Of a stretch of DNA of 64,000 nucleotides, positions 1 to 35,112 are shown one piece after another. The notes under the pieces are model-generated. The model had not been told where the DNA came from, did no database searches, and saw only the letters and a list, made by a program, of their open reading frames with translations. The translations under genes were made by a program, and so were the position numbers. Positions within the stretch are counted from its first letter, which is position 1. The number at the start of each line of letters is the position of its first letter. The stretch is from contig JAVZEV010000002.1 of NCBI GenBank assembly GCA_038873195.1, forward strand, positions 1-64,000, read 5' to 3'. This DNA is from Candidatus Bathyarchaeia archaeon. Lineage in GTDB: Archaea; Thermoproteota; Bathyarchaeia; Bathyarchaeales; Bathycorpusculaceae.

Positions 1-894
1 TGCTATAGCGCCTATTGCCATTGTAACTGAAAGAACAGCAGGCAATGCTGCTGTAATTGCTGCCACAGTTAAAACCAAAGCAAATTGGAGTATCTCAAGA
101 ATACTTTCATGGCGGAAAAGTGCTACAAAAAAGATGACAGCCACCAATATCATGGCGAGAACTATTAAATAATCGCCAATCTTGATTATGGCTTTCTGAA
201 AGTGGCTTTGAGTTTTAGCCTCTTCTACAAGCCTAGCAGTCTTACCAAAATATGTATTCATGCCAGTGGAAACCACCAGAGCATTCATCTCTCCATGCCT
301 TACTATGGAACCCGCATACCCAACGTCCCCGACATGCTTTTCTACCGGCAGAGATTCGCCTGTCAATGCCGATTCGTCCACAAGCAAATAGTCGCCCTCA
401 AAAAGTTTGATGTCAGCTGGGACTATATCACCTAAGCGTACACGCACAACATCGCCTGGCACAAGTTCCCTAGCTGGAATTTCACGCCATTTGCCATCAC
501 GCAAAACTCGCGCTTTCGGCGCAAGCTTCTGTTTCAACATTTCAATAGCATTGCCTGCCTTATGCTCCTGCCAGAAACCAACCACTGCATTAACCATAAG
601 AAGCACGAAAATAATTCCAAAATCAATCCAGTGTTGGATAAACGCCGACACAACAACTGCCGCTTCAATCATCCATGGAATAGGACCCCAAAAATAGCCT
701 AAAAACTTTACAATTGGATTAACTTTTTTCTCAGGAATCTCGTTAGAGCCAAACTGTTGAAGCCTTTTCTCCGCCTCTGAAGTGGTAAGGCCGTTCTCGT
801 TTGAAGAAAGTCTCCTGAATAATTCCGTTACAGAGAGCTTCTTAGCCTCTTCTGCGCCAGTAAAAGCCGAGCTTTCGTTTTTATGAGACTTCAT
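1..894 (-). CDS. P-type H+-ATPase, plasma-membrane type (N-terminal part, cut by window edge)
   Basis: The first 298 codons of a P-type cation ATPase read on the minus strand and run off the window start. The N-terminal cation-ATPase domain (about residues 10-75) is followed by two membrane segments, then the actuator domain with the TGES motif inside SALTGES, then a membrane pair ending in PAVLSVTMAIGA. That last string is characteristic of the P-type IIIA proton pumps, which export H+ using ATP. The phosphorylated DKTGT motif lies outside the window. The start is ATG at 894. The function call is by family resemblance; no neighbour confirms the ion. Confidence 0.85.
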   Translation of the reverse strand, partial: MKSHKNESSAFTGAEEAKKLSVTELFRRLSSNENGLTTSEAEKRLQQFGSNEIPEKKVNPIVKFLGYFWGPIPWMIEAAVVVSAFIQHWIDFGIIFVLLMVNAVVGFWQEHKAGNAIEMLKQKLAPKARVLRDGKWREIPARELVPGDVVRVRLGDIVPADIKLFEGDYLLVDESALTGESLPVEKHVGDVGYAGSIVRHGEMNALVVSTGMNTYFGKTARLVEEAKTQSHFQKAIIKIGDYLIVLAMILVAVIFFVALFRHESILEILQFALVLTVAAITAALPAVLSVTMAIGAIA

Positions 895-1019
895 GTTTGA
901 TGCACTTCCGCTAAACTTTTGTCTCTTGATATTTAAGGTTGTTTTGGTCATGCACTAGCCTGACAATAATTAGGCGTAGAGAAATTTTGGGCGATAAATA
1001 AAGGCTTGCACTCTTATGT

Positions 1020-1415
1020 TTATGTGATTTCCAATGTCAGTCTTTCTCCTTCATGATTGTATGCTGCAACATTTCTACTATCTGCAAATGGAAAGCCTAT
1101 GATCATTAGTATTTTTCCCCAAAAATGGTTCAAATCGGCTGGTGAAGGCGTCAAGTTTCCTGATGGATGAGAATGTACTGTTCCAATAATGGAAAAATCC
1201 ATGGGCAACATGTGTGTTGGGATATTGGCGAAGCCTTGTCCATACGTAGCTAATGGAGGCACGATTAAATCAGTAATTTTAATGGTGTCTTTGCTTCTTT
1301 CACCGCGAAGCAATAAAATGCTCTCCTTTGGATAAAGTAATTTTGCATTTTCTAAAATTGCCTTCATTAATGTTTGGCTAATCGAAACGGTTGTACGAGG
1401 CTTCATATAAAACAC
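1020..1415 (-). CDS. JAB/MPN (JAMM) domain metalloprotease-like protein
   Basis: This 131-residue protein is a single JAB/MPN domain. The JAMM zinc signature is intact: H81, H83, P84, S91 and D94 in HSHPSGNLTPSPADL, with a glutamate at 31 or 39 as possible general base. JAMM proteins in archaea remove ubiquitin-like modifiers (SAMPs) or act in sulfur transfer; which of these applies is not visible here. No E1 or SAMP gene is adjacent. ATG codons at 1415 and 1406 are both possible starts. The gene stands alone between the proton pump and the divergent ABC exporter. Confidence 0.8.
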   Translation of the reverse strand: MFYMKPRTTVSISQTLMKAILENAKLLYPKESILLLRGERSKDTIKITDLIVPPLATYGQGFANIPTHMLPMDFSIIGTVHSHPSGNLTPSPADLNHFWGKILMIIGFPFADSRNVAAYNHEGERLTLEIT

Positions 1416-1506
1416 TCATTAACGCGCAATTATTTTTACCTGTTGTTTCTGTAAAGTTTTTAAGCAAGTGTTGGCAAGCTAATTGGTTGCTTTCGAGGGA
1501 TAGTGA

Positions 1507-2505
1507 ATGGATTTTGCGGTTCAAGTTAACAGTCTTGTTAAGGTTTATGATGAAAAGGTGAAAGCCTTAGACGGTGTTAACTTGAATGTGGAGCCTGGAG
1601 AGGCATTTGCGTTGCTTGGTCCCAATGGCGCTGGAAAAACCACGCTTATAAGAATTTTGACAACACAGCTTAAGCCTACCGCTGGAGAAGCGTATGTCTT
1701 CGGGTTAAATGTTGTCCGTAATGGTGGCAAGGTTAGAAGGTTAATAAGTTATGTTCCTCAGGAGATGAGTGTCTGGACAGACATTAGCGGTTATGAGAAT
1801 CTTCTAGTGTATGCAAAAATTTTCGACATACCCGGTCACGAAAGAGGTAAGATAATTGATGAAGTTTTGGAAAATATGGGTTTAACCCAAGTGAAAAACG
1901 AACTTGTTAGGACATATTCTGGCGGGATGATAAGAAGGCTTGAAATAGCCTGCGCCATGCTCATTAAGCCCAAAATTATGTTTTTGGACGAGCCAACTAT
2001 TGGCTTAGATCCTGCCGCCCGAGAAGTTGTTTGGGAAAGACTCGGCGTTTTCAAGAAGGAGTACGGCGTAACCATATTCTTTAATACACATTATATGGAT
2101 GAAGCTGACTTATACGCGGATGACATAGCCATAATTAATCAAGGAAAAATAGTGGCAAGAGGCACAAGCGAAGAATTAAAACACTCCTTGGGCGGCGAAA
2201 CTATCGCATTTACACTTGAAAAGACCACCCTTAAACCTGAATTAGTTGAAGAATTTCGGAAATTAAGTTTTGTAAAGGACGTTTTTGTGGAGAATGGAAG
2301 TTTAAGCGTGTTTGTTGATGATGCTGAATCCACGTTGCCAAGTCTAATGACTGCCTTGAAAGGTAAGGGCATATCTGTAAGGAAGGTTTCTATAACTAAG
2401 CCAACTTTGGACGATGTTTTCCTTAAATATGTTGGGACACGGCTTGAGGAGAAGGGTAGAATCAGCGATGTTACGCATATGCGTTACATGATTAGGAAGG
2501 GATAA
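1507..2505 (+). CDS. ABC-2 type exporter, ATP-binding protein (DrrA-like)
   Basis: This 332-residue ABC ATPase powers the membrane protein encoded next. Walker A GPNGAGKT is at 38-45, the SGGM signature at about 138-141, and Walker B with LDEPT at about 159-164, followed by the H-loop in NTHYMDEA. The extra C-terminal domain of about 110 residues is typical of DrrA/CcmA-like export ATPases. Only 3 bp separate it from the permease gene, so the two are translationally coupled. The substrate (drug, lipid or polysaccharide) cannot be deduced. Confidence 0.9.
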   Translation: MDFAVQVNSLVKVYDEKVKALDGVNLNVEPGEAFALLGPNGAGKTTLIRILTTQLKPTAGEAYVFGLNVVRNGGKVRRLISYVPQEMSVWTDISGYENLLVYAKIFDIPGHERGKIIDEVLENMGLTQVKNELVRTYSGGMIRRLEIACAMLIKPKIMFLDEPTIGLDPAAREVVWERLGVFKKEYGVTIFFNTHYMDEADLYADDIAIINQGKIVARGTSEELKHSLGGETIAFTLEKTTLKPELVEEFRKLSFVKDVFVENGSLSVFVDDAESTLPSLMTALKGKGISVRKVSITKPTLDDVFLKYVGTRLEEKGRISDVTHMRYMIRKG

Positions 2506-2508
2506 GGC

Positions 2509-3273
2509 ATGATGGAAGGCTTTAAAAATATGCTGGTTATGATTGAGCTGGAATTGAGGAGACTACGCCATGACAGGACGGAAATCTACTTTAGAGCTGT
2601 TCAACCAATCCTTTGGATAGTCATTTACGGTCCTGTGATGAGCAGTGTTAGGGCTATACCGACCGGCGGAGTGCCATACACAGACTTCATAACGCCGGGG
2701 GTTATGATTCAAACAACAACTTTCGTCAGCATATTCTATGGGCTGATGATGGTTTGGGAGAGGGACTCCGGCATATTGAAGAAGTTGCTCGTCACTCCAG
2801 CTTCAAGGTATTCCATGGTGATAGGCCGATCCATGGCTTCAGGCGTGAGAGCACTATTCCAAGCCCTAATAATTCTGCCCATAGCCCTCATAATTGGTGT
2901 GCAGTTTATACCAAACCCAGCCTACTTCATCCTAGCCTTCACAATAATATTCTTTGCCTCAGGCGGATTCGCAGCCATATCCATACTCGTGGCCTCCTTC
3001 ATGAAAACCAGAGAACGATTTATGGGCATAGGCCAAGCCATAATTATGCCCCTATTCTTTGCAAGCAACGCCCTATACCCCATCCAAATGATGCCGCCGA
3101 TCCTAAGAGAATTTTCAACGTTCAACCCGCTAAGCTACGTTGTCGATGCAGTAAGAGGGCTGCTAATCACTGGAGACCTTTCAAATCTTCTAATAGATTT
3201 GGTCGCAATCGCTATTTTCGATGCTGTGCTATTCATTTTGGCGTCAATAAGCTTCAAGCGCATTATAGAATGA
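2509..3273 (+). CDS. ABC-2 type exporter, permease
   Basis: This 254-residue integral membrane protein of the ABC-2 permease family has about six hydrophobic segments. It has the typical internal region with GILKKLLVTPASR before the third segment, and a C-terminal FNPLSYVVDAVRG motif characteristic of DrrB-like permeases. It follows its ATPase with 3 bp between stop and start, forming a two-gene exporter. ATG codons at 2509 and 2512 are equivalent candidate starts. The substrate is unknown. Confidence 0.9.
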   Translation: MMEGFKNMLVMIELELRRLRHDRTEIYFRAVQPILWIVIYGPVMSSVRAIPTGGVPYTDFITPGVMIQTTTFVSIFYGLMMVWERDSGILKKLLVTPASRYSMVIGRSMASGVRALFQALIILPIALIIGVQFIPNPAYFILAFTIIFFASGGFAAISILVASFMKTRERFMGIGQAIIMPLFFASNALYPIQMMPPILREFSTFNPLSYVVDAVRGLLITGDLSNLLIDLVAIAIFDAVLFILASISFKRIIE

Positions 3274-3348
3274 TAATAACAAAGCAATACATGACTGTTT
3301 TTATTTCAGCTTAGAAATGTAATATTGGGAGATGGAAAGCGAAGGAAA

Positions 3349-5949
3349 ATGTTTAAACAAAACAGAAAGAATCTTGTTGCAAGTAAGGTTAAGAGTTGGA
3401 CTTTACCAAGCGATGATGAGCTTTTAAGCATACCCATCGATGAACTTCTAGCCCGTTTAAATACGTCCTCGTCTGGGCTTTCTTCTGAGGAAGCAGAAGA
3501 ACGCTTAAGAATATTCGGTTTTAACGAGCTTGCTAAAAGGCGAAAACGAGCTGCCATTGTTGAATTTCTCTCCCATTTTCGAAGCCCATTAGTAATCATA
3601 TTACTGATCGCTGGCTTGATTTCTGGCTTCTTCGGAGAAACAATAAACGCTCTCATCATACTTTCAATAGTGCTTCTAAGCGTGATACTTGACTTTTATC
3701 AGGAATCAAAAGCTGAAAGAGCCGCTGAAATGCTTAAGGAAAAAGTGACCACAACTGCGACTGTGCTGAGAGATGGCGTTAAACAAGAAGTTAAGCTTTC
3801 CGAAATAGTTCCAGGCGATATAGTGTATCTTGCAGCCGGAGATATTGTGCCTGCGGATGCGCGATTGATTACCGCAAAGGACTTGTTTGTTAATCAGTCA
3901 GCATTAACAGGCGAAGCTTTTCCCGTCGAGAAAACGACTTCGCCATTGAAGACAAAAACCATGACAATTACGGAATGGTCCAATTACATTTTTATGGGTA
4001 CATCAGTCGTAAGCGGAACAGCAACGGCTGTTGCGTTAAAAACTGGAAACTCTACAGAGTACGGGAAAATAGCCAAAAAACTTGTTGCAAGAGAACCTAT
4101 AACAGAGTTTGAGAGAGGGCTTAGACGATTCGGCTTCATGATTATGGAAATCACGTTTCTTCTTGTTTTATTTGTCTTTTTCGTAAACGCGCTTTACAAG
4201 CGTGGTGTATTGGAGTCCCTTCTTTTTGCGGTGGCTTTGGCGGTAGGTTTGACACCTGAACTCTTGCCAATGATAATGACTGTAAACCTTTCAAAAGGCG
4301 CACTTGCAATGTCGAGAAAAGGCGTCATTGTAAAACGTTTAGAATCCATCCAGAACTTTGGAAGCATGGATGTACTATGCACCGACAAAACTGGCACATT
4401 AACGGAGAACAAAATAAAACTTGTGCTGCATATTGATATGGAAGGAAGCGACGACGAAAAAGTGCTTTTGTACTCTTTTTTGAACAGTTACTATGAAACT
4501 GGGCTGAAAAGCCCGCTTGATGAAGCCATCCTCAGACATAAAGGTATCAGAGATATAAATGCACGGGCATACCAGAAAGTGGATGAAATTCCATTTGACT
4601 TTGCGCGTAAACGAGTTTCGGTTGTTGTTGAGCATGAAGACCAACGATTTTTAATTGCTAAAGGTGCGCCAGAAGAGATCGTTAAAGTATGTTCACGATG
4701 CGAGCTAAAAGATAAGATATATGATTTGACGAGTGATTTGCTGAATAAGATTGAACAGAGATATTATGAGTTGAGCTCCGATGGGTATAGGGTTTTAGGA
4801 GTATCTTACAAACTGGTCAACGAAAAGAAGGATACGTACTCCGTGAACGACGAAAGCGATATGGTGTTTTTAGGCTTCGTGGCATTTCTTGACCCGCCAA
4901 AGGAAACCGCAAAAGAGTCTCTACAGCTGTTAAGAAAAGCAGGAATAGAATTGAAAATTCTGACAGGCGACAATGAGCTTGTTACAAGAAAAACCTGTGA
5001 ACAATTGGGCTTTGAAGTTAAAGGAGTTGTTCTGGGAAGCGATATAGCTCATATGCAAGATGATGCTCTTGCGAGGGTTGTAGAAGAGGCAAACATTTTT
5101 GCAAGGGTTACGCCTGCCCAAAAAGATAGGATAATAGGTGCATTAAAGAATAATGGTCACGTTGTTGGTTATCTTGGAGATGGTATTAACGATGCGCCTT
5201 CTTTGAAGACGGCGGATGTAGGTATTTCCGTTGATAATGCGGTTGATGTTGCAAAAGAATCTGCGGACATAATACTTCTTGAGAAGAGGTTAAAGGTTCT
5301 ACATAATGGCGTACTAGAAGGACGGAAAACTTTTGATAACACCCTAAAGTATGTGATGATGGGGACAAGTTCAAATTTCGGGAACATGTTTAGTGTAGCA
5401 GTTGCATCACTCTTTTTGCCTTTTCTCCCCATGCTTGCTATACAGATACTGTTAAACAACCTTCTTTATGACTTGTCCGAGTTAACAATACCAACCGATA
5501 ACGTTGATCAAGAAGCTGTTGAAAAGCCAAGAAAATGGGACATTTCTTTTATAAGGAAATTTATGGTTATCTTGGGACCTGTAAGTTCCATCTTTGATTT
5601 TATGACATTCTTTATAATGTTACATGTTTTTAAAGCTACGGAACCGTTATTCCAAACAGCGTGGTTCATCGAATCTCTATGCACTCAGACATTAGTTGTT
5701 TTCATTATAAGAACTAGAAAAACACCGTTTTATGGGAGCAGACCAAGCACTCTTTTACTCTTGAGCAGTTTAAGCGTCGTCGCCATTGCACTGCTGTTGC
5801 CATTTACACCAATAGGTAACATTTTTGGATTCGTAACCCCACCGCCATCATTCTTCGCGTTCCTAGTGGCCTTGACTGTTTCTTACTTGTTATTGGTAGA
5901 CCTGATCAAGAGCGTGTTCTATAAGATGTTTGTGCATTATCCAGATTAG
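3349..5949 (+). CDS. mgtA: Mg2+-importing P-type ATPase (MgtA-like)
   Basis: This is a full-length P-type IIIB ATPase (866 residues from this start). It has an N-terminal cation-ATPase domain, the actuator domain with LTGEAFPVEK, the phosphorylated aspartate in DKTGTLTEN (D346), TGDN near 539, the hinge motif GDGINDAPS at 610-618, and a C-terminal membrane domain with about six segments. The family imports Mg2+ down its electrical gradient at the expense of ATP. I chose ATG 3349; an in-frame TTG at 3325 would add eight residues. It is the second P-type III ATPase in the window and is not linked to the first. Confidence 0.88.
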   Translation: MFKQNRKNLVASKVKSWTLPSDDELLSIPIDELLARLNTSSSGLSSEEAEERLRIFGFNELAKRRKRAAIVEFLSHFRSPLVIILLIAGLISGFFGETINALIILSIVLLSVILDFYQESKAERAAEMLKEKVTTTATVLRDGVKQEVKLSEIVPGDIVYLAAGDIVPADARLITAKDLFVNQSALTGEAFPVEKTTSPLKTKTMTITEWSNYIFMGTSVVSGTATAVALKTGNSTEYGKIAKKLVAREPITEFERGLRRFGFMIMEITFLLVLFVFFVNALYKRGVLESLLFAVALAVGLTPELLPMIMTVNLSKGALAMSRKGVIVKRLESIQNFGSMDVLCTDKTGTLTENKIKLVLHIDMEGSDDEKVLLYSFLNSYYETGLKSPLDEAILRHKGIRDINARAYQKVDEIPFDFARKRVSVVVEHEDQRFLIAKGAPEEIVKVCSRCELKDKIYDLTSDLLNKIEQRYYELSSDGYRVLGVSYKLVNEKKDTYSVNDESDMVFLGFVAFLDPPKETAKESLQLLRKAGIELKILTGDNELVTRKTCEQLGFEVKGVVLGSDIAHMQDDALARVVEEANIFARVTPAQKDRIIGALKNNGHVVGYLGDGINDAPSLKTADVGISVDNAVDVAKESADIILLEKRLKVLHNGVLEGRKTFDNTLKYVMMGTSSNFGNMFSVAVASLFLPFLPMLAIQILLNNLLYDLSELTIPTDNVDQEAVEKPRKWDISFIRKFMVILGPVSSIFDFMTFFIMLHVFKATEPLFQTAWFIESLCTQTLVVFIIRTRKTPFYGSRPSTLLLLSSLSVVAIALLLPFTPIGNIFGFVTPPPSFFAFLVALTVSYLLLVDLIKSVFYKMFVHYPD

Positions 5950-5980
5950 TCGGCATAAAAATGACGCTACGCGGATAAGA

Positions 5981-5988
5981 TATATAAA
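5981..5988 (+). promoter_or_regulatory. TATA box upstream of the 6035 gene
   Basis: TATATAAA lies just after the mgtA stop. Transcription would begin roughly 25 bp later, near 6013, shortly before the ATG at 6035. This suggests that the next gene has its own promoter rather than relying on mgtA read-through. Confidence 0.5.
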
Positions 5989-6034
5989 GTGCCCACCGCA
6001 ATTGGTTAGCGTACTCGTTAGAAGGAATAAAGCC

Positions 6035-6541
6035 ATGTCAGAAGCAATTCTTGTTTTAAAAGTTGAGAATCCGCATTTTACTGTTCGACTTTATGAGAAT
6101 TTGCTGAGAGTAGATTTGAAAGGAAGTTTGAAGAGCGAGCTAGAAGAGGCTCTTGAAAACAAACCAATTCTTAAAGAAACGCTCGGCGGATTACTAAGCA
6201 TATTTGTTCCATTACACATACGCCTAAGCGACATAGATTCTGTGCAAATGAACGACGCTGGAAAGGTAACGATAAACCTTCCATATCATCGGAATATCGT
6301 AATCCCGCTTGAAAGGAAACACGCAGAAGAATTCGTAAACAAGCTCAATCAGTTGATTCAAAAAGTGAAAGACCGTGAAATCAGAGAACGGACAATGAAG
6401 AAAAGGGCTAAAAGAAAAACGAAGAAAAAACCGAGTGGAGTTCCCCCGAGTTCCTATTTGACTATTCCGTATTATTTTCCTACAGAACAAGTTGACATCG
6501 TCGACAAGTTGAAGCGAAAGAAAAGGAAAGTGAAAAAATGA
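6035..6541 (+). CDS. Conserved-looking hypothetical protein with basic C-terminus
   Basis: I do not recognise this 168-residue protein. A globular N-terminal part of about 115 residues is followed by a strongly basic segment containing KKRAKRKTKKK and a tail ending in KLKRKKRKVKK, as in many nucleic-acid-binding archaeal proteins. The ATG at 6035 is preceded by GAAGGA at 6021 and by a TATA box at 5981. A longer frame starting at 5930 would overlap mgtA and begins with low-quality sequence, so I rejected it. Nucleic-acid binding is inference from charge only. Confidence 0.7.
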   Translation: MSEAILVLKVENPHFTVRLYENLLRVDLKGSLKSELEEALENKPILKETLGGLLSIFVPLHIRLSDIDSVQMNDAGKVTINLPYHRNIVIPLERKHAEEFVNKLNQLIQKVKDREIRERTMKKRAKRKTKKKPSGVPPSSYLTIPYYFPTEQVDIVDKLKRKKRKVKK

Positions 6542-6555
6542 AAGCTTCTAAAAAG

Positions 6556-6623
6556 TGTTGACATGCGAAGTTTAATAATGTAACAATTGTCAGTGTTGAA
6601 AGTGTCAACATTCACTTTATATT
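6556..6623 (+). promoter_or_regulatory. Inverted repeat and TATA box upstream of the zinc-ribbon gene
   Basis: TGTTGACA at 6556-6563 and its exact reverse complement TGTCAACA at 6603-6610 flank a further partial copy (TGTCAGTGTTGA). Immediately after is TTTATATT, a TATA-like box at 6616-6623. Paired half-sites directly upstream of a TATA box suggest an operator for an activator or repressor of the gene at 6709. Confidence 0.4.
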
Positions 6624-6708
6624 AATGAGCGATTAATTTTTCTAAGAAATATGCAGTTGAGAGGTAGTTGTAATAAGGGAATGGTTCTATTATTAACAGG
6701 TGAGCGTG

Positions 6709-7704
6709 ATGACTTTGTATTGTCCTAAATGTGGTGCACAACTTCCAGATGATGCAATATTCTGTATCAAGTGTGGAACTAGGATTTCTGCTTTACCTAT
6801 GCCGCAGGCTCCATCAACGCCTGTTATCGCCTCTTTAGAAGCTAAGTCGCTTAGGTGTCCTCACTGTGGTGCTCCAATTACGCCGAAATTCGGTGAGATG
6901 GTCATAAGCTGTGAGTACTGTGGAACTGCCGTAATATTGGGGAGCGAAGGTTGGAGAGGCATACATAAGCAGACAATGCTTCCGCTTAAGCTTGCAGAAC
7001 AAGACAAGGTGGTTGCTGAAATTCGCAGCTTAATGGATAGAGGGTTACTGCATAGACACTTTTACGAAGGATCAAGGCTGGAGGAAATGAGCTTAAGCTT
7101 TGTTCCATACTGGATTGTCTCAGTTTCAACAAGAACTTCGGTAATAGCTAGTGACATAGCAGTTCAAGCTGGAGAAATTGCAACAACAGCAGCTCTTTTC
7201 GGCGTTATGGGGTCAGCGATGAGCGGCAGAAGACGTGGAGTAGGCATAGCTGGGCCTCTTCTTGCAGGAGCAATGCTTGGCACTATGATGGGACCCGGCC
7301 AAGCGGGTGCAAAAAGAGCCTATCAAATGGACAATAATTACAACATAGCCATTGTAGCTGTCAAAGCATTTAACGAATATCAGCCAAAAAGCTATCAATT
7401 CAACTTGCATGAGAGAATGCTGTTTGATGTTTCTAAAATTCCAAAAAGCGTAAAAATTTTGAACGGAGACGTAGGCGAAGAAGCAGCAAAATATCAGGCG
7501 AAAACTCTTGCAGACCAACTGCAATCAGAGAAGGCACATGCACAGTACCATATGATCCAACAACTTCACACAGATGTGGATGTTACAGAAACTGAACTGC
7601 TTTATGCGCCGATATGGTTCGCTCAATACGACCATAAAGGCAACAAGATAATCCTAGTCATTGATGGCAACTCAGGCGGCGTAATCAACAGCATAGGCTT
7701 ATAA
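6709..7704 (+). CDS. Double zinc-ribbon protein with glycine-rich central segment
   Basis: This 331-residue protein has two N-terminal zinc ribbons. The first is CPKCG...CIKCG and the second CPHCG...CEYCG. A globular middle part follows, then a glycine-rich hydrophobic stretch (around residues 165-205, with repeated GxxxG spacing) and a C-terminal domain. The ATG at 6709 has GGTGA at the right distance; an upstream in-frame GTG at 6700 overlaps that ribosome-binding site. The glycine-rich hydrophobic stretch could be membrane-associated. I know no function; zinc-ribbon proteins of this type occur widely in archaea. Confidence 0.75.
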   Translation: MTLYCPKCGAQLPDDAIFCIKCGTRISALPMPQAPSTPVIASLEAKSLRCPHCGAPITPKFGEMVISCEYCGTAVILGSEGWRGIHKQTMLPLKLAEQDKVVAEIRSLMDRGLLHRHFYEGSRLEEMSLSFVPYWIVSVSTRTSVIASDIAVQAGEIATTAALFGVMGSAMSGRRRGVGIAGPLLAGAMLGTMMGPGQAGAKRAYQMDNNYNIAIVAVKAFNEYQPKSYQFNLHERMLFDVSKIPKSVKILNGDVGEEAAKYQAKTLADQLQSEKAHAQYHMIQQLHTDVDVTETELLYAPIWFAQYDHKGNKIILVIDGNSGGVINSIGL

Positions 7705-9436: not shown

Positions 9437-9910
9437 CTATCCCTCCAATTTTTCATTTACCTCCCAACTCACCGGAACTATGTCCGGCAGAGGCCAGGAT
9501 TTTGACGCCTCACTTTGAAGAGCGGGTTTTAGAATTGGTAGAGCCGAGAAGATTGCATGTATCAATTTCGCTAACTCTCTGTCTGCCATGTTTTCAAGCA
9601 AGGGAAGGAAAGCGTTATCAGTAAATACATCAACAGTCACTTTTGGAAATCCAGTTAAATTGTCATCCGCCCAGAAACAGATTTCTACAGAGTACTTGAG
9701 CCTACTTGCATGCATTTTTATTTGATCTTTTGTGGCTTGAAGCGAAAAGCCAAGTTCTGTGATAACCGGGGACAAATTTTCTAGGTTTTGTTGTAGCCAG
9801 TTAAATTCGCTTCTGGTCAACAAAGCTTCCTTTGTTATACGAATGTGGTTATATAGGTAGTCCTGATCACCTTCTTTTTGTTTGAAATCATTTAGCGAGG
9901 TACACTTCAT
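9437..9910 (-). CDS. Hypothetical protein
   Basis: I do not recognise this 157-residue soluble protein. It is acidic and probably mixed alpha/beta, with no signal peptide, metal motif or repeated element. Its stop lies 2 bp before the start of the secreted-protein gene and it begins 33 bp after the 9944 gene, so the three are probably one transcript. Tight coupling to a secreted protein suggests a shared role, but nothing in the sequence says what. Confidence 0.6.
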   Translation of the reverse strand: MKCTSLNDFKQKEGDQDYLYNHIRITKEALLTRSEFNWLQQNLENLSPVITELGFSLQATKDQIKMHASRLKYSVEICFWADDNLTGFPKVTVDVFTDNAFLPLLENMADRELAKLIHAIFSALPILKPALQSEASKSWPLPDIVPVSWEVNEKLEG

Positions 9911-9943: not shown

Positions 9944-10273
9944 CTACGTAATATATTTGCAAGCTTCTGTGGTGCCGATTAGGGCATCTATTTCTTCCAT
10001 AGCTATCTCTACAAAATCCTCGAGACTACGCAGTTGTTTAGCTATACCTGTGATGATTATCAAATCATTGTAGAAATCGATGAAGTAGCAAAGTACTGGA
10101 TTTTTTTTCACAAATTTTAGAATTATCCCGTCTTCCTTGTCTCGCACCTCATGGAATGTTAGCTCTGCAGCTATCTTCCTTATAGCATCCATTTTTACTG
10201 AAACGTAGTTCTTCTCAGACTCATCAAGACTGTAATAGATTTTTGCTATAAACCCCACGTTTATTTTACTCAT
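9944..10273 (-). CDS. Hypothetical protein, first gene of a three-gene operon
   Basis: I do not recognise this 109-residue protein. It has a YYSLDESEKNYVSVKMDAIRKIA stretch with helical character near the N-terminus, then two predicted strands. A TATA-like element reads on the minus strand near 10309-10317. The region between it and the divergent 10508 gene (10274-10507) is AT-rich and contains no other gene that I can see. Confidence 0.55.
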   Translation of the reverse strand: MSKINVGFIAKIYYSLDESEKNYVSVKMDAIRKIAAELTFHEVRDKEDGIILKFVKKNPVLCYFIDFYNDLIIITGIAKQLRSLEDFVEIAMEEIDALIGTTEACKYIT

Positions 10274-10507: not shown

Positions 10508-10939
10508 ATGTCTCGTAGCAAATCAAAAGCATTATTCATCTACTTAGATGTTAACAATCTTTCCGAACTGAAAGGGAATCTGAAATCTGTTGTTGCTGCA
10601 GACGAAGAAGAAGCTAAAAGACACGTTTTGAAGGCCAAAAAGTTTAGTTACGTGATTATTTTGCGTGTCGTCAAATCCATCGATGGTACCTATGTTAGGC
10701 TACCTTTCGGTCAAGAGATGGGTCCAATGAACTCAATGCTGGACTATCTTGAGAGGTTAGGTTTTGAAGTTGGAGCATACAGCTTCAACGAAGATTCTTT
10801 TTTCTATAGATGTGTCTATACAAATGACTACGGTCCTAAGAAGACAGATATAAAAATTTATGAGATTATAGCTCCTTCAATAGAATCACTTAGAGCATGT
10901 CATCAATTCCTCAAGAAGCACTTTGGTGATAAACGATGA
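10508..10939 (+). CDS. Hypothetical protein coupled to the HTH-GHMP kinase
   Basis: I do not recognise this 143-residue protein. It has an alternating strand/helix pattern (ALFIYLDV...; FSYVIILRVV; ...IKIYEIIAPS) that could be a small alpha/beta fold such as a ferredoxin-like or ACT-like sensor; that is a guess from the pattern only. Its stop overlaps the start of the next gene by 4 bp (ATGA), so the two are translationally coupled and probably functional partners. Confidence 0.6.
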   Translation: MSRSKSKALFIYLDVNNLSELKGNLKSVVAADEEEAKRHVLKAKKFSYVIILRVVKSIDGTYVRLPFGQEMGPMNSMLDYLERLGFEVGAYSFNEDSFFYRCVYTNDYGPKKTDIKIYEIIAPSIESLRACHQFLKKHFGDKR

Positions 10940-12648
10940 ATGAGAATAAGAGTGAAACCCTCAAGATTGATTATTTTGCATCTTTAAGCAGAGGAAATAG
11001 AATTCTTAAGGTATTGCATGATATTCCAAGTGAGAAAGTTTCACGTGGAGGGTGCTCAAAACAAGAAATAGAAGAACGTATAGCGGAATACACCAAAGAG
11101 CTGTTTGCTAAAGGTCTGGTGTCAACGGGTAAGGGGAGGGGTTATGTAAGGTCGCTTGATAAAGAGCTTAACAATTTGAAGGAAGCAGGCCTGGTGCTTG
11201 AGCAGAACACTGACGGCACACGTCTATACAAACTAAGCATTGACTCCTTGTTTTACATTCACGGTATGTATTCGACTATTTCAGATTTTAAAACCGTTAC
11301 AAAAAAAGACATCGAACAGCCACGCTTTTTGACACCATCCACTCCAGGAGCCATTCTTTTAGATGAAATAGTTCTGGCTCCAGCTTCTATTACACTTATC
11401 GGTGAACACGGTGTATTATTGGGTCGACCAGCTGTGGCTCTTCCAATACCTATCTTTCTGGCTATTCATGCAACGGTATCTAAATACACCGGACCTACTG
11501 TAGTCCATTGCTTTGCGCCCGACCTCGATTTTTCATGCAAAACATATGCTGAATTGAGCTGTTTCCCCGGGCTTCCTGTCCCTATCTATAGGATTTCCGA
11601 CAGCTCATTCCGATTTAAGTTGTTGCAAGTTGAACGCTTATTTATAAGTAAACTAAAAAAAGTTCATAAAGAAGGCTATTACATCGTTCTACAGATACGA
11701 AGTCAAATTCCTCCATGTGTTGGTTTAGGAAGTAGCGGGGCGTTATGCGCAGCACTTGCAATATTGCTTGACCGAATTATAAATCCAGAGGAGACTAATC
11801 CTCTAATTTGGCGGAAAGAAAATCCAGATCGGTTGTTGAAAGGCGAAGTCTCTCAGTTTAATAAGATATTTCTTAATGCGGTGGAATTTGAAAGAGAAAT
11901 CCATGGGAAAACATCCGGAGTTGGGCCGTTCGCAAGTCTAGTGGGCGATGATTGTTTCACACCTATCTGGTACGAACTGGGTAGCGGATTAAGTAACAAA
12001 GAAACCTTTGTAATGAACGAAATACTTGATCAAAAAAAGGATGAAGATGAGGTCAAATTGAATTTAAAATGTATGAAAGGTTCTGCTAAAGCCCAAGAAT
12101 ACCTGAGTAATGAAATGGGACTGGCTGCAGTTTACACGACTCAGAGTCGCCGAGACATAAAGGCAACTCTTAGCGATGATGAATTTATAAAAGCCCTAAA
12201 AAGAGGTGACTGTCGTAGAGATTTCGTCGCGACCACTAAGAAACTATGGAAAAACTTGTGTGTTGAACATGAGAGCAGACGAGCAGATGACATGGAAGAT
12301 GTTATCACATGCATCAATTTGTTCGGTGAATACGAGGAAGGATATCTAAAGATGCTAAGAAATGAAAGCGAAGCAATCGCTAGAGAATTAATATATCGAT
12401 TGCGCGGGGCTGGTCTAGGAGCAAAGTATACTGGTGCAGGTTTTGGCGGGGACATAATTCTGATCGGTTCGAAAGAAAAGTTGAAAACCATGCTGATCCC
12501 AAATTATTATCCCGTACACTACACTAACATAACCCTAACTTACCAATCGCCTGAAATTGATTGGCGTGCCTGTCCAAAAATAGTCCAGAAAAATGACTTT
12601 GCAAGTAATCTCTTGCCAAAATTTTTAAACCGTGCGGTGCGAACTTAG
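10936..12648 (+). CDS. Winged-helix / GHMP-family small-molecule kinase fusion protein
   Basis: This 570-residue protein joins two parts. Residues about 10-110 look like a winged helix-turn-helix, with a tail running into LFYIHG. Residues about 130-560 are a GHMP kinase: IGEHGVLLGRPAVALP corresponds to the N-terminal substrate/GEH motif, PCVGLGSSGALCAAL is the phosphate-binding GLGSS loop, and TGAGFGGD near the C-terminus is the third GHMP motif. The family phosphorylates sugars, mevalonate or homoserine; the substrate is unknown. The three motifs are intact, so it may be active. At 570 residues it is much longer than the 327-residue mevalonate kinase at 34129. It could be a regulator that senses a metabolite through a kinase fold. 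Confidence 0.75.
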   Translation: MNENKSETLKIDYFASLSRGNRILKVLHDIPSEKVSRGGCSKQEIEERIAEYTKELFAKGLVSTGKGRGYVRSLDKELNNLKEAGLVLEQNTDGTRLYKLSIDSLFYIHGMYSTISDFKTVTKKDIEQPRFLTPSTPGAILLDEIVLAPASITLIGEHGVLLGRPAVALPIPIFLAIHATVSKYTGPTVVHCFAPDLDFSCKTYAELSCFPGLPVPIYRISDSSFRFKLLQVERLFISKLKKVHKEGYYIVLQIRSQIPPCVGLGSSGALCAALAILLDRIINPEETNPLIWRKENPDRLLKGEVSQFNKIFLNAVEFEREIHGKTSGVGPFASLVGDDCFTPIWYELGSGLSNKETFVMNEILDQKKDEDEVKLNLKCMKGSAKAQEYLSNEMGLAAVYTTQSRRDIKATLSDDEFIKALKRGDCRRDFVATTKKLWKNLCVEHESRRADDMEDVITCINLFGEYEEGYLKMLRNESEAIARELIYRLRGAGLGAKYTGAGFGGDIILIGSKEKLKTMLIPNYYPVHYTNITLTYQSPEIDWRACPKIVQKNDFASNLLPKFLNRAVRT

Positions 12649-12745: not shown

Positions 12746-13267
12746 AGAAATTAGCAATAATTAATACCGAGTACTTGTCGTTGACTTCATATTTGAAGAT
12801 TAGCAGAGTTGGCATATCTCGTAACGAGCCGTTTCTAGAGTTGCTGCTGGTAAGCGCGCGCATACGAGACCATTATTAACGAATCTTCTTCAGAAGGTAG
12901 AGTAGTTGACATATCCGTTAAATATTATCTTTGGCGCGGAAGAGATATTGATCTATACTGGGATGTGCCAGCTCTCTGGTTTAGCATTAATGACGAAGAA
13001 AGAACAGAAGTAAAAAAGTGCCTTAGACTTTACAGAGCATTGAAATTATTGAATAAAGATATAATAGATTTAGCATATGATAAATATCAAACAACGAAAA
13101 CTCCTATCACGGCCTTAGATTTTAGATAAGGGCAAACGCATAAATACTCTAAGATAATCCAAAAAATTGAGCAAGATTTACAAAGGAAGTATGATGAATC
13201 ATTAGGCAGTTTAGATAACAAAATTGCTGAGAAGATCAGAGGGATTTTAGAAAAACTTGAACTTTGA
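12746..13267 (+). pseudogene. Decayed gene of unknown family beside the CRISPR array
   Basis: Three protein-like stretches follow one another on the plus strand with no usable start. The first, from about 12746, ends in a stop near 12872 after FLELLLVSAR. A second frame, open from 12854, reads through GRDIDLYWDVPALWFS to a TAA at 13127-13129. The same frame continues after that TAA to TGA at 13265-13267 with a charged, helical stretch ending KIRGILEKLEL. One frame change and one in-frame stop point to a degraded gene. I cannot name the family. The remainder of 12649-12745 holds nothing clear. Confidence 0.45.
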
Positions 13268-13495: not shown

Positions 13496-14688
13496 CTTTC
13501 AATTCCCTTTATTGGGATTTTTGTTCTGCATCGACATGTTTCAAGAAAATCTTCCTTTATAATTTTGGTGGCTTTCAATTCCCTTTATTGGGATTTTTGT
13601 TCTGCATCTTGATGCTAAGACTTTGAGGTTGCAAGTTTTAAAGTACTTTCAATTCCCTTTATTGGGATTTTTGTTCTGCATCTGAGGTTGACAATGCGAA
13701 TATTACTTTTCATTGTGTGTTCTTTCAATTCCCTTTATTGGGATTTTTGTTCTGCATCCACGAACAAGACCCAGACGGAACAGTTAGAAAGATGCTTATG
13801 AGAACTTTCAATTCCCTTTATTGGGATTTTTGTTCTGCATCCACGAACAAGACCCAGACGGAACAGTTAGAAAGATGCTTATGAGAACTTTCAATTCCCT
13901 TTATTGGGATTTTTGTTCTGCATCTAGTTCCCACGCTTGCATCATGGGTTCGATTCCTTTTTCGCTTTCAATTCCCTTTATTGGGATTTTTGTTCTGCAT
14001 CCTGTTATTACGTTAACGCTCCGGGGAGTGGAATTTCCAAACTTTCAATTCCCTTTATTGGGATTTTTGTTCTGCATCTAACGGGCTTGTTTGGTCTCCA
14101 ACTACAAAACTGCTTATGGAACTTTCAATTCCCTTTATTGGGATTTTTGTTCTGCATCCTTCTTTGGTGTCCATAAAGGTTTCATCGGAGAAGAAAACTT
14201 TCAATTCCCTTTATTGGGATTTTTGTTCTGCATCTTTACATAGCGACTTAAGAGAAACCTACGGCATCCTACTTTCAATTCCCTTTATTGGGATTTTTGT
14301 TCTGCATCTAGGTGGAGTTTGCTGTTCCGTTAACGCTTGGTTTTGTTCTTTCAATTCCCTTTATTGGGATTTTTGTTCTGCATCAATATAATGTAAAAAA
14401 AGATTATAGAGAATAAAGGAGGCTTTCAATTCCCTTTATTGGGATTTTTGTTCTGCATCCAAGTGGAACAAGACGAAAGCTTACTTGAACTTTAAATGGG
14501 CTTTCAATTCCCTTTATTGGGATTTTTGTTCTGCATCTTTACTGGCGAAATCCTGTTCAATCTGTCTTGCAACGTCTTTCAATTCCCTTTATTGGGATTT
14601 TTGTTCTGCATCGATAAATCTGGTTGATACAATTAACACAATAAACACGATCTTTCAATTCCCTTTATTGGGATTTTTGTTCTGCATC
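13496..14688 (-). CRISPR. CRISPR array: 16 repeats of 37 bp, 15 spacers
   Basis: Sixteen identical 37-bp repeats start at 13496, 13572, 13646, 13722, 13805, 13888, 13965, 14042, 14122, 14198, 14272, 14348, 14423, 14501, 14576 and 14652. On the plus strand each begins CTTTCAATTCCC and ends GTTCTGCATC. Spacers are 37-46 bp. Read on the minus strand the repeat ends in ATTGAAAG, the 8-nt crRNA 5' handle known from archaeal type I-A/I-B/III arrays, so transcription is probably minus-strand with the leader on the cas side. Spacers 4 and 5 are identical. No degenerate terminal repeat is seen to confirm the direction. Confidence 0.97.
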
Positions 14689-17060: not shown

Positions 17061-17103
17061 AATGCGCAACTCTTATGTATGCGTTTGGTATCTTTTGTTT
17101 ACG

Positions 17104-17436
17104 GTGACGAGGTTGGCCCTTAAGCCTTTAGCTGTGAGAATTCCAGAGAAGATAGAGAGGGAAATTCAGGAGGTGGTTGAGCAGGAGGGTTTGGATAAGG
17201 CCACTGTTGTTAGGACTCTTCTTGAGTTGGGTATTGGTGAATGGCGTAAGCAAACAGCCCTTGAGTTGCTGCGTGATGGGAAGGTGACCTTTGCTAAGGC
17301 TGCTGAAATGGCTAAGCTTTCGCTTTGGGAGTTCGCCGACCTACTAAAGCAGCGCAACATCGAATGGGTTAGATATTCGCCCCAGGAAATTGAGAGAGAG
17401 TTTAAGGAAGCGTCTGCGGCGGTAAAGTGGAAATGA
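17104..17436 (+). CDS. UPF0175 family antitoxin-like protein
   Basis: This small helical protein (about 110 residues) of the UPF0175 family starts with a ribbon-helix-helix-like segment (VRIPEKIEREIQEVV) followed by LLELGIGEWRKQTAL and the family core KAAEMAKLSLWEFADLL. UPF0175 proteins are commonly paired with DUF3368 PIN toxins, as here: its stop overlaps the next start (ATGA). The start is uncertain; the frame is open from ATG 17062, but the residues before GTG 17104 are not family-like. Its position between cas2 and cas4 is unusual. Confidence 0.8.
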   Translation: MTRLALKPLAVRIPEKIEREIQEVVEQEGLDKATVVRTLLELGIGEWRKQTALELLRDGKVTFAKAAEMAKLSLWEFADLLKQRNIEWVRYSPQEIEREFKEASAAVKWK

Positions 17437-17963
17437 AGTTGCTTGTGTTCAATTCCACTCCGTTAATTTACATAACGAAAATTGGATTAAGCCGAATTTT
17501 TGAAGAGTTAAAAGGAGAGAAATTAACTTCTCCAAGTGTTAAACGTGAGGTTGTGGATGAAGGCAAGCGTAAGGGCGTTGCAGACGCCATGGTTTTAGAA
17601 AGGTTATTTCAAAAAGACGTTTTCAAAGTTGTAAAACCTAAAGACACAAGTCTCCTAGAGACTTTTTTGCAAACAAGGGGGCTTCATGTGACTGACGCTG
17701 AAGTTTTAGTCATAGCGAAGGAACGCGACGGAATCGCCATAATCGATGATGAAGTTGCAAGGAAAACAGCTAAAATCTATGGGATAACCTACGCAGGAAC
17801 ACCATATGTTTTGGTTAAGGCGTTTTCTCAAGGGCTCATTACAAAGGAAAAGGCGAAACAAGCAATAAACGATATGATTTTTGCTGGGTGGAGATGTAGC
17901 GTTGAAACTTATGCGAAAATTATGGAAAGTCTAGAAAAGATGGGAAAGAATGAGCAAGACTGA
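17433..17963 (+). CDS. DUF3368 PIN-domain toxin (probable RNase)
   Basis: This 176-residue PIN-domain protein is related to DUF3368. It has the first acidic-strand region LLVFNSTPLIYITKIG, the middle acidic residue in HVTDAEVLVIAKE, and the third in AIIDDEVARKTA. In the first motif the usual Asp is replaced by Asn (FNSTPL), a variation known in this subgroup. PIN toxins cleave RNA and are neutralised by the partner encoded upstream. ATG 17433 overlaps the antitoxin stop by 4 bp, and the 3' end overlaps cas4 by 14 bp, so the pair is translationally embedded in the cas operon. Confidence 0.85.
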   Translation: MKLLVFNSTPLIYITKIGLSRIFEELKGEKLTSPSVKREVVDEGKRKGVADAMVLERLFQKDVFKVVKPKDTSLLETFLQTRGLHVTDAEVLVIAKERDGIAIIDDEVARKTAKIYGITYAGTPYVLVKAFSQGLITKEKAKQAINDMIFAGWRCSVETYAKIMESLEKMGKNEQD

Positions 17964-34128: not shown

Positions 34129-35112
34129 ATGGGGGTTGTTGCCTCTGCTCCCGCGAAGATAATACTCTTCGGAGAGCACTTTGTCGTCTACGGCGAACCA
34201 GCAATAGTACTAGCCATCGATAAAAGAGCCTACGCCGAAGCAGAACAACGCGACGACAAACGTCTTTGCCTGCACTCTGTAAACTTAAACCTAGCTGGTT
34301 ACTTCGAGAATGGAACCTTCAAGATTGAGCAAGGCGACGCAAAAGAGGCAAAATCAAAGTTTGAGCCGATTAGGTTTGCTGTGGCAAAAGTTTTAGAAAA
34401 ATATGGAGAAAATGTTGGGCTAAACATCAAAATCAACTCGACAGTTCCGGTTGCTGCAGGGTTAGGTTCTTCAGCAGCCGTAGTTGCAGCCGTCACAGCA
34501 GCGGTAGGCGCACTTTTGAATGTTAAAATGTCTAAGGAAGATGTTTTCCGAACTACTTTTGAATCTGAGAAAATTGTGCATGGCACACCATCCGGAATCG
34601 ACCCTGCAATTTCAACTTTCGGCGGAACACTTCTTTTTCAAATGGACACCGGTTTTAAACCATTAGAAGTTAAAGCGGATATCCCGCTTGTTATTGGAGA
34701 CACGGGAGTTGAAAGGTCTACGCGCGCTCAAGTGGAAAAAGTGCGGAGCATAAAAGAGAAGTATCCACAAATCGTAGAGCCAGTAATGTTGGCAGCGCGT
34801 GAAATTGTCTTGCGAGCCATAGACGCCTTAAAAGAAAATGACTTAGAAACTCTTGGAGAAATGATGAACATCAATCACGCGTTGCTTTACGGTGTCGGAG
34901 TTTCAGACGAATCATTAGAATGGCTCGTGAATGCGGCACGAAAAGCTGGAGCTTTAGGTGCAAAGTTGACCGGAGCAGGCGGCGGAGGATGCATGATAGC
35001 ACTAGCAAAAAATGAAAATCTTGAACGCGTTTTTGAGGCTATTCAGAGAGTTGGCGGAAGACCTTTCATGGCAAGAAAAACCGACGAAGGGGTGAAGATT
35101 GAGCGAACCTAA
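34129..35112 (+). CDS. mvk: Mevalonate kinase
   Basis: Mevalonate kinase (327 residues) is a GHMP kinase that makes mevalonate 5-phosphate for archaeal lipid synthesis. It has SAPAKIILFGEHFVVYGEPA, the phosphate loop PVAAGLGSSAAVVAAV, HGTPSGIDPAIS and the C-terminal KLTGAGGGGCM. It is the first of four consecutive isoprenoid genes and overlaps isopentenyl phosphate kinase by 14 bp. Confidence 0.95.
   Translation: MGVVASAPAKIILFGEHFVVYGEPAIVLAIDKRAYAEAEQRDDKRLCLHSVNLNLAGYFENGTFKIEQGDAKEAKSKFEPIRFAVAKVLEKYGENVGLNIKINSTVPVAAGLGSSAAVVAAVTAAVGALLNVKMSKEDVFRTTFESEKIVHGTPSGIDPAISTFGGTLLFQMDTGFKPLEVKADIPLVIGDTGVERSTRAQVEKVRSIKEKYPQIVEPVMLAAREIVLRAIDALKENDLETLGEMMNINHALLYGVGVSDESLEWLVNAARKAGALGAKLTGAGGGGCMIALAKNENLERVFEAIQRVGGRPFMARKTDEGVKIERT

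Follow-up and report, generated by a model that had tools for sequence, protein, structure and literature searches.

Within the 64,000-nucleotide stretch of the Candidatus Bathyarchaeia archaeon contig that was analysed here (the window), which also encodes an archaeal RNase P RNA, two overlapping genes were followed up. The first encodes a protein of 143 amino acids, the second a protein of 570 amino acids in which, as read from its sequence, a GHMP domain of the mevalonate kinase (MVK) type stands behind an N-terminal extension of about 140 residues of probable winged-helix type. The features are the following:

10508..10939, plus strand: 143-aa coupled partner without known family (open reading frame, in-frame codon bias of 0.134 bits/codon)
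10936..12648, plus strand: 570-aa fusion of a winged-helix-like N-terminus and a mevalonate-kinase-like GHMP domain (open reading frame, profile and fold matches)
10990..11235, plus strand: probable winged-helix-like segment, residues 19-100 (HTH_54, PadR profile, predicted helices and strands)
11371..12495, plus strand: GHMP domain of mevalonate kinase type, residues 146-520 (PF00288, TIGR00549, hhalign, Foldseek)
11386..11388, plus strand: codon of Ser151, at the catalytic-Lys position of MVK (alignment to 28 MVKs and profile alignment)
11923..11925, plus strand: codon of Gly330, at the catalytic-Asp position of MVK (alignment to 28 MVKs and profile alignment)
34129..35112, plus strand: ordinary MVK of the genome, outside the pair and given for context (GHMP N and C domains; aligned as L002)

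As originally predicted, the 143-residue gene lies directly upstream of the fusion gene, and the two frames, both on the plus strand, share a 4-bp ATGA. Such an overlap is the usual sign of translational coupling. The codon usage of both frames is coding-like (0.134 bits/codon for the shorter and 0.113 for the longer one) and all other frames have a negative score; since the in-frame usage resembles that of the core genes of the window, both are probably real genes. The ordinary MVK, encoded 22 kb from the pair, scores above them with 0.353 bits/codon; its GHMP N and C domains were recognised at 1.6e-20 and 3.3e-19, respectively, and its catalytic Lys and Asp are intact. Due to the presence of this separate, normal enzyme in the genome, the fusion protein would be free for another role.

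The fusion belongs to the GHMP kinase superfamily, as judged by the match to PF00288 (GHMP_kinases_N, Pfam; 9.4e-8, above cut-off) together with the GLGSS motif, and its C-terminal GHMP domain (PF08544) reaches 14.2 bits, below the cut-off of 21. The NCBIfam mevalonate kinase model TIGR00549 was matched at 1.3e-19 with 70.8 bits, missing the equivalog cut-off of 163, whereas the homoserine kinase models gave a weak match of 8.2e-4. In the PDB sequence search the best matches were solved mevalonate kinases, and hhalign aligned the fusion with 28 archaeal MVKs at 99.1% probability across residues 146-338. When the predicted model was submitted to Foldseek, rat and archaeal MVK were found at the top (E 1e-12), followed by galactokinases. 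An insert containing EETNPL, situated before the HGxxSG motif, looks more like the longer mammalian MVKs than the archaeal ones in the alignments.

The kinase motifs had been described as intact, which is true for GEH (residues 156-158), GLGSS (263-267), TGAGFGG (499-505, of the TGAGxGG type) and the Mg-binding Glu, but not for the catalytic pair. Ser151 and Gly330 occupy the positions where the catalytic Lys and Asp stand in 28/28 archaeal MVKs, and an independent profile alignment placed both residues in the same register as the multiple alignment. We regarded an MVK column as conserved if the same residue was present in at least 27 of the 28 archaeal enzymes. The fusion keeps 34 of the 71 columns selected in this way and differs in 37, among them the catalytic pair and substrate-pocket positions as aligned; past residue 340, where large insertions make the alignment uncertain, no claim is made about the substrate pocket. 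Ser266/267 and Glu319, which correspond to the Mg2+ site of rat MVK, are kept, together with His158 and Ser327. Gly, on the other hand, is found at the catalytic-Asp position in no GHMP family compared. A functional MVK is expected to pass the TIGR00549 equivalog cut-off and to possess both the catalytic Lys and Asp; the fusion does neither, and judging from these residues it is likely a catalytically dead enzyme.

The consequences of such replacements are documented for human MVK: substitution of the Asp decreased kcat more than 40,000-fold and left Km and Kd almost unchanged, and substitution of the Lys decreased kcat about 56-fold and weakened the binding 16- to 56-fold (PMC6283576). Since Km and Kd of the Asp mutant hardly changed, the loss of this residue need not abolish binding. 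The ligand, however, may not be mevalonate, because many further MVK-conserved columns differ, including the aligned pocket positions.

The main competing explanation is an active GHMP kinase that phosphorylates some small molecule directly, without the Lys and Asp, in the manner proposed for homoserine kinase; the N-terminus would then serve regulation or dimerisation, or else the entire protein would be a trigger enzyme. Homoserine kinase is indeed an active member of the superfamily without an ionisable side chain equivalent to the Asp of MVK, and a direct-phosphorylation mechanism was proposed for it (PMC6283576). The preserved Mg site and glycine-rich motifs of the fusion, as well as its weak match to the homoserine kinase model, are consistent with this explanation. 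Nevertheless, the domain resembles MVK much more strongly, a family with strictly conserved Asp and Lys; the Gly at its Asp position is without parallel in the families compared, and no metabolic genes were found in the immediate neighbourhood of the pair. We consider an active kinase unlikely, although it deserves serious attention.

The evidence for the DNA-binding-like domain proposed at the N-terminus of the fusion is suggestive only: the extension exists and carries weak winged-helix signals, but these stay below the family cut-offs. The domain search detected HTH_54 over residues 43-107 (E=0.021, below cut-off), but no family was matched above cut-off by residues 1-140 in the profile searches. 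When a PadR profile was made from 30 domains found in related genomes, residues 75-90 aligned with it in recognition-helix register, at a score that 2 of 150 shuffled sequences equalled. Structure prediction yielded a topology suitable for a winged helix, helix-helix-helix-hairpin (helices at 19-28, 42-58 and 69-80, strands at 89-91 and 95-97), but with low model confidence (pLDDT about 30-54). The three weak signals agree with each other, and a winged helix is the probable fold of this segment; it did not match an ordinary kinase extension.

We tentatively propose that the 570-aa protein is a one-component, ligand-sensing, non-catalytic MVK-like regulator, a reading to which we would give somewhat less than an even chance. 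It is favoured by the binding residues being kept while those of the chemistry are lost, by the spare normal MVK and by the winged-helix-like N-terminus. More specifically, and more doubtfully, it might be a prokaryotic one-component transcription factor, in which a dead MVK-type GHMP sensor is fused to a winged helix and accompanied by a small coupled partner. In the GHMP domain the scaffold for ligand, nucleotide and Mg2+ appears largely preserved, and the Lys/Asp pair responsible for the chemistry is lost; the domain would bind ATP and a small molecule (mevalonate, another polyol or an amino alcohol), DNA binding by the winged-helix-like N-terminus would depend on whether the domain is open or closed, and the 143-aa coupled protein would act with the fusion as partner or effector. 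It should be stressed that we infer the winged helix, the ligand binding, the DNA binding and the role of the partner alike.

Several points speak against a regulator. The N-terminus belongs to no family above cut-off and its predicted model is of low confidence; 37 of the 71 MVK-conserved columns are changed, aligned pocket positions among them; by analogy with human MVK, substitution of the Lys could also have weakened the binding; and no homologs were found that would show co-conservation or a shared genomic context. Among the three readings offered in the original prediction, a sugar-kinase-type regulator nonetheless fits best, and an enzyme with its own repressor has been weakened by the loss of the catalytic Lys and Asp. 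If the regulator reading is true, the GHMP fold, which in prokaryotes mainly serves metabolic enzymes, would also be used by a transcription regulator to sense its ligand, and the archaeon could monitor an isoprenoid precursor, or a polyol related to one, directly. The protein is a single-genome orphan as yet, and its main value lies in the clear and cheap test it permits, binding versus turnover.

The fusion is rare: among the collections searched it occurs in one genome so far. Ordinary MVKs were its only homologs in the relatives, in 257 genomes of the class (Bathyarchaeia), in 398 phylum-wide genomes and in 400 and 229 genomes of two other classes, which amounts to about 1000 genomes of the phylum beyond the class. 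No homolog was revealed by two genome-wide pattern scans, first with native and then with motif patterns, which require near-exact motifs; the patterns of the second scan were set with synthetic variant rows. These rows, in alignments A1 and A2, served only to steer degenerate patterns and are not biological evidence, and nothing but the negative scans depends on them; A2 steered poorly, one of its search patterns falling within the N-terminus. A match to residues 293-379 in one genome (G494) lay on the EF-1alpha gene and was regarded as chance. Neither protein of the pair was found in phages, plasmids or viral contigs, the latter being searched using the native proteins as well as motif-degenerate alignments. 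The genome-context survey found no second copy of the pair in the genomes searched, and it is absent as a known enzyme system from these collections. The literature search returned no described GHMP/HTH regulator, an absence that is weak evidence.

The partner protein is similarly isolated. No homologs were detected in 251 class genomes, nor any meaningful match in Pfam, NCBIfam, PADLOC or PHROGs, and its single-sequence model (pLDDT 46.6) was too poor for use. All fold matches were insignificant, including AcrIF9 (E about 0.5), which we disbelieve; a weak match in another genome (G041, E 0.005) was rejected, being located in an unrelated neighbourhood without a GHMP gene.

Upstream of the pair two divergent genes were recognized on the minus strand, 9944-10273 (109 aa) and 9437-9910 (157 aa), which had no homologs in 60 relatives; together with the pair they make up an island of four genes without homologs found. 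Downstream the stretch is untidy: a coding-like fragment lies at 12857-13129 (0.232 bits/codon, no clear start), another short frame comes next at 13130-13267, and 12857-13267 is possibly the remnant of a disrupted gene. The fusion could be regarded as a decaying or recently acquired paralogue without present function in a variable island by the CRISPR locus, in line with its occurrence in a single genome, the possible remnant nearby and a codon score well under that of the native MVK. However, 570 codons have stayed open with a positive in-frame codon bias, and the changes spare the residues of the nucleotide and Mg sites and of motif 3; we hold this explanation to be improbable.

The island adjoins a CRISPR locus, as had been noted before: an array of 16 repeats extends from 13497 to about 14688, with Csa1, Cas1 and later Cas4 downstream. 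At 13723-13888 a repeat-spacer unit is duplicated, giving two adjacent identical 47-nt spacers, and no spacer had a convincing match in the window outside its own array. Inside the cas cluster, between cas2 and cas4 (17062-17963), stands a toxin-antitoxin-like pair consisting of a 124-aa putative antitoxin, assigned by reading, and a 178-aa DUF3368, PIN-like protein; it is not a chance insertion, since the same arrangement is present in a relative of the genus (G001, L049 8160-8672).

The tie of the island's pair to CRISPR or defence is proximity and nothing else, and the proposal of a metabolite-sensing defence protein has lost ground, having position in its favour and no further finding. A mobile-element or conflict module beside CRISPR, such as a pair of genes for a toxin and antitoxin or for metabolite-sensing defence, seems to us quite improbable: the ATGA-coupled small gene, the neighbours lacking homologs in relatives, the CRISPR adjacency and the absence of the partner from 250 other class genomes would suit it, but the PADLOC defence models gave no match up to E=1 and PHROGs no meaningful one, phages, plasmids and viral contigs contained nothing of the kind, and no second copy was found that could show recurrence in defence islands.

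At the beginning of the window, 427-7704 shows 96.7% identity over 7.3 kb to a contig end of a genome of the same family and another genus (G044:C2). The identity stops sharply at 7704, at a gene end, and related genomes elsewhere are at about 70-75%. Either the segment was transferred horizontally not long ago, or one of the two assemblies has a contig end that is chimeric or was misbinned.

Compared with known systems, the fusion resembles archaeal and eukaryotic MVK in its GHMP domain, in the GEH, GLGSS and TGAGxGG motifs, in the Ser and Glu of the Mg site and in its best sequence and fold matches; it differs in Ser151 and Gly330, in the N-terminal extension of about 140 residues and in the sub-cut-off TIGR00549 score. 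With homoserine kinase it shares the condition of a GHMP protein without the catalytic Asp, but its sequence match to that enzyme is much weaker than to MVK, and we know of no homoserine kinase with an N-terminal domain of this kind. In yeast, the GHMP protein KlGal1 switches transcription without kinase activity (PMC7556753). The fusion is like the Gal1/Gal3 inducers in that a GHMP protein is proposed to control transcription independently of catalysis; unlike the fusion, these are eukaryotic proteins of the galactokinase type which act via the repressor Gal80 and have no fused DNA-binding domain. To our knowledge no regulator has been characterised in which a dead MVK-type GHMP sensor is fused to a winged helix. 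In archaeal RbkR (a riboflavin kinase/regulator fusion) and in bacterial BirA and NadR, an enzyme domain acting on a small molecule is joined to a DNA-binding domain; their enzyme folds are unrelated to that of the fusion and are catalytically active.
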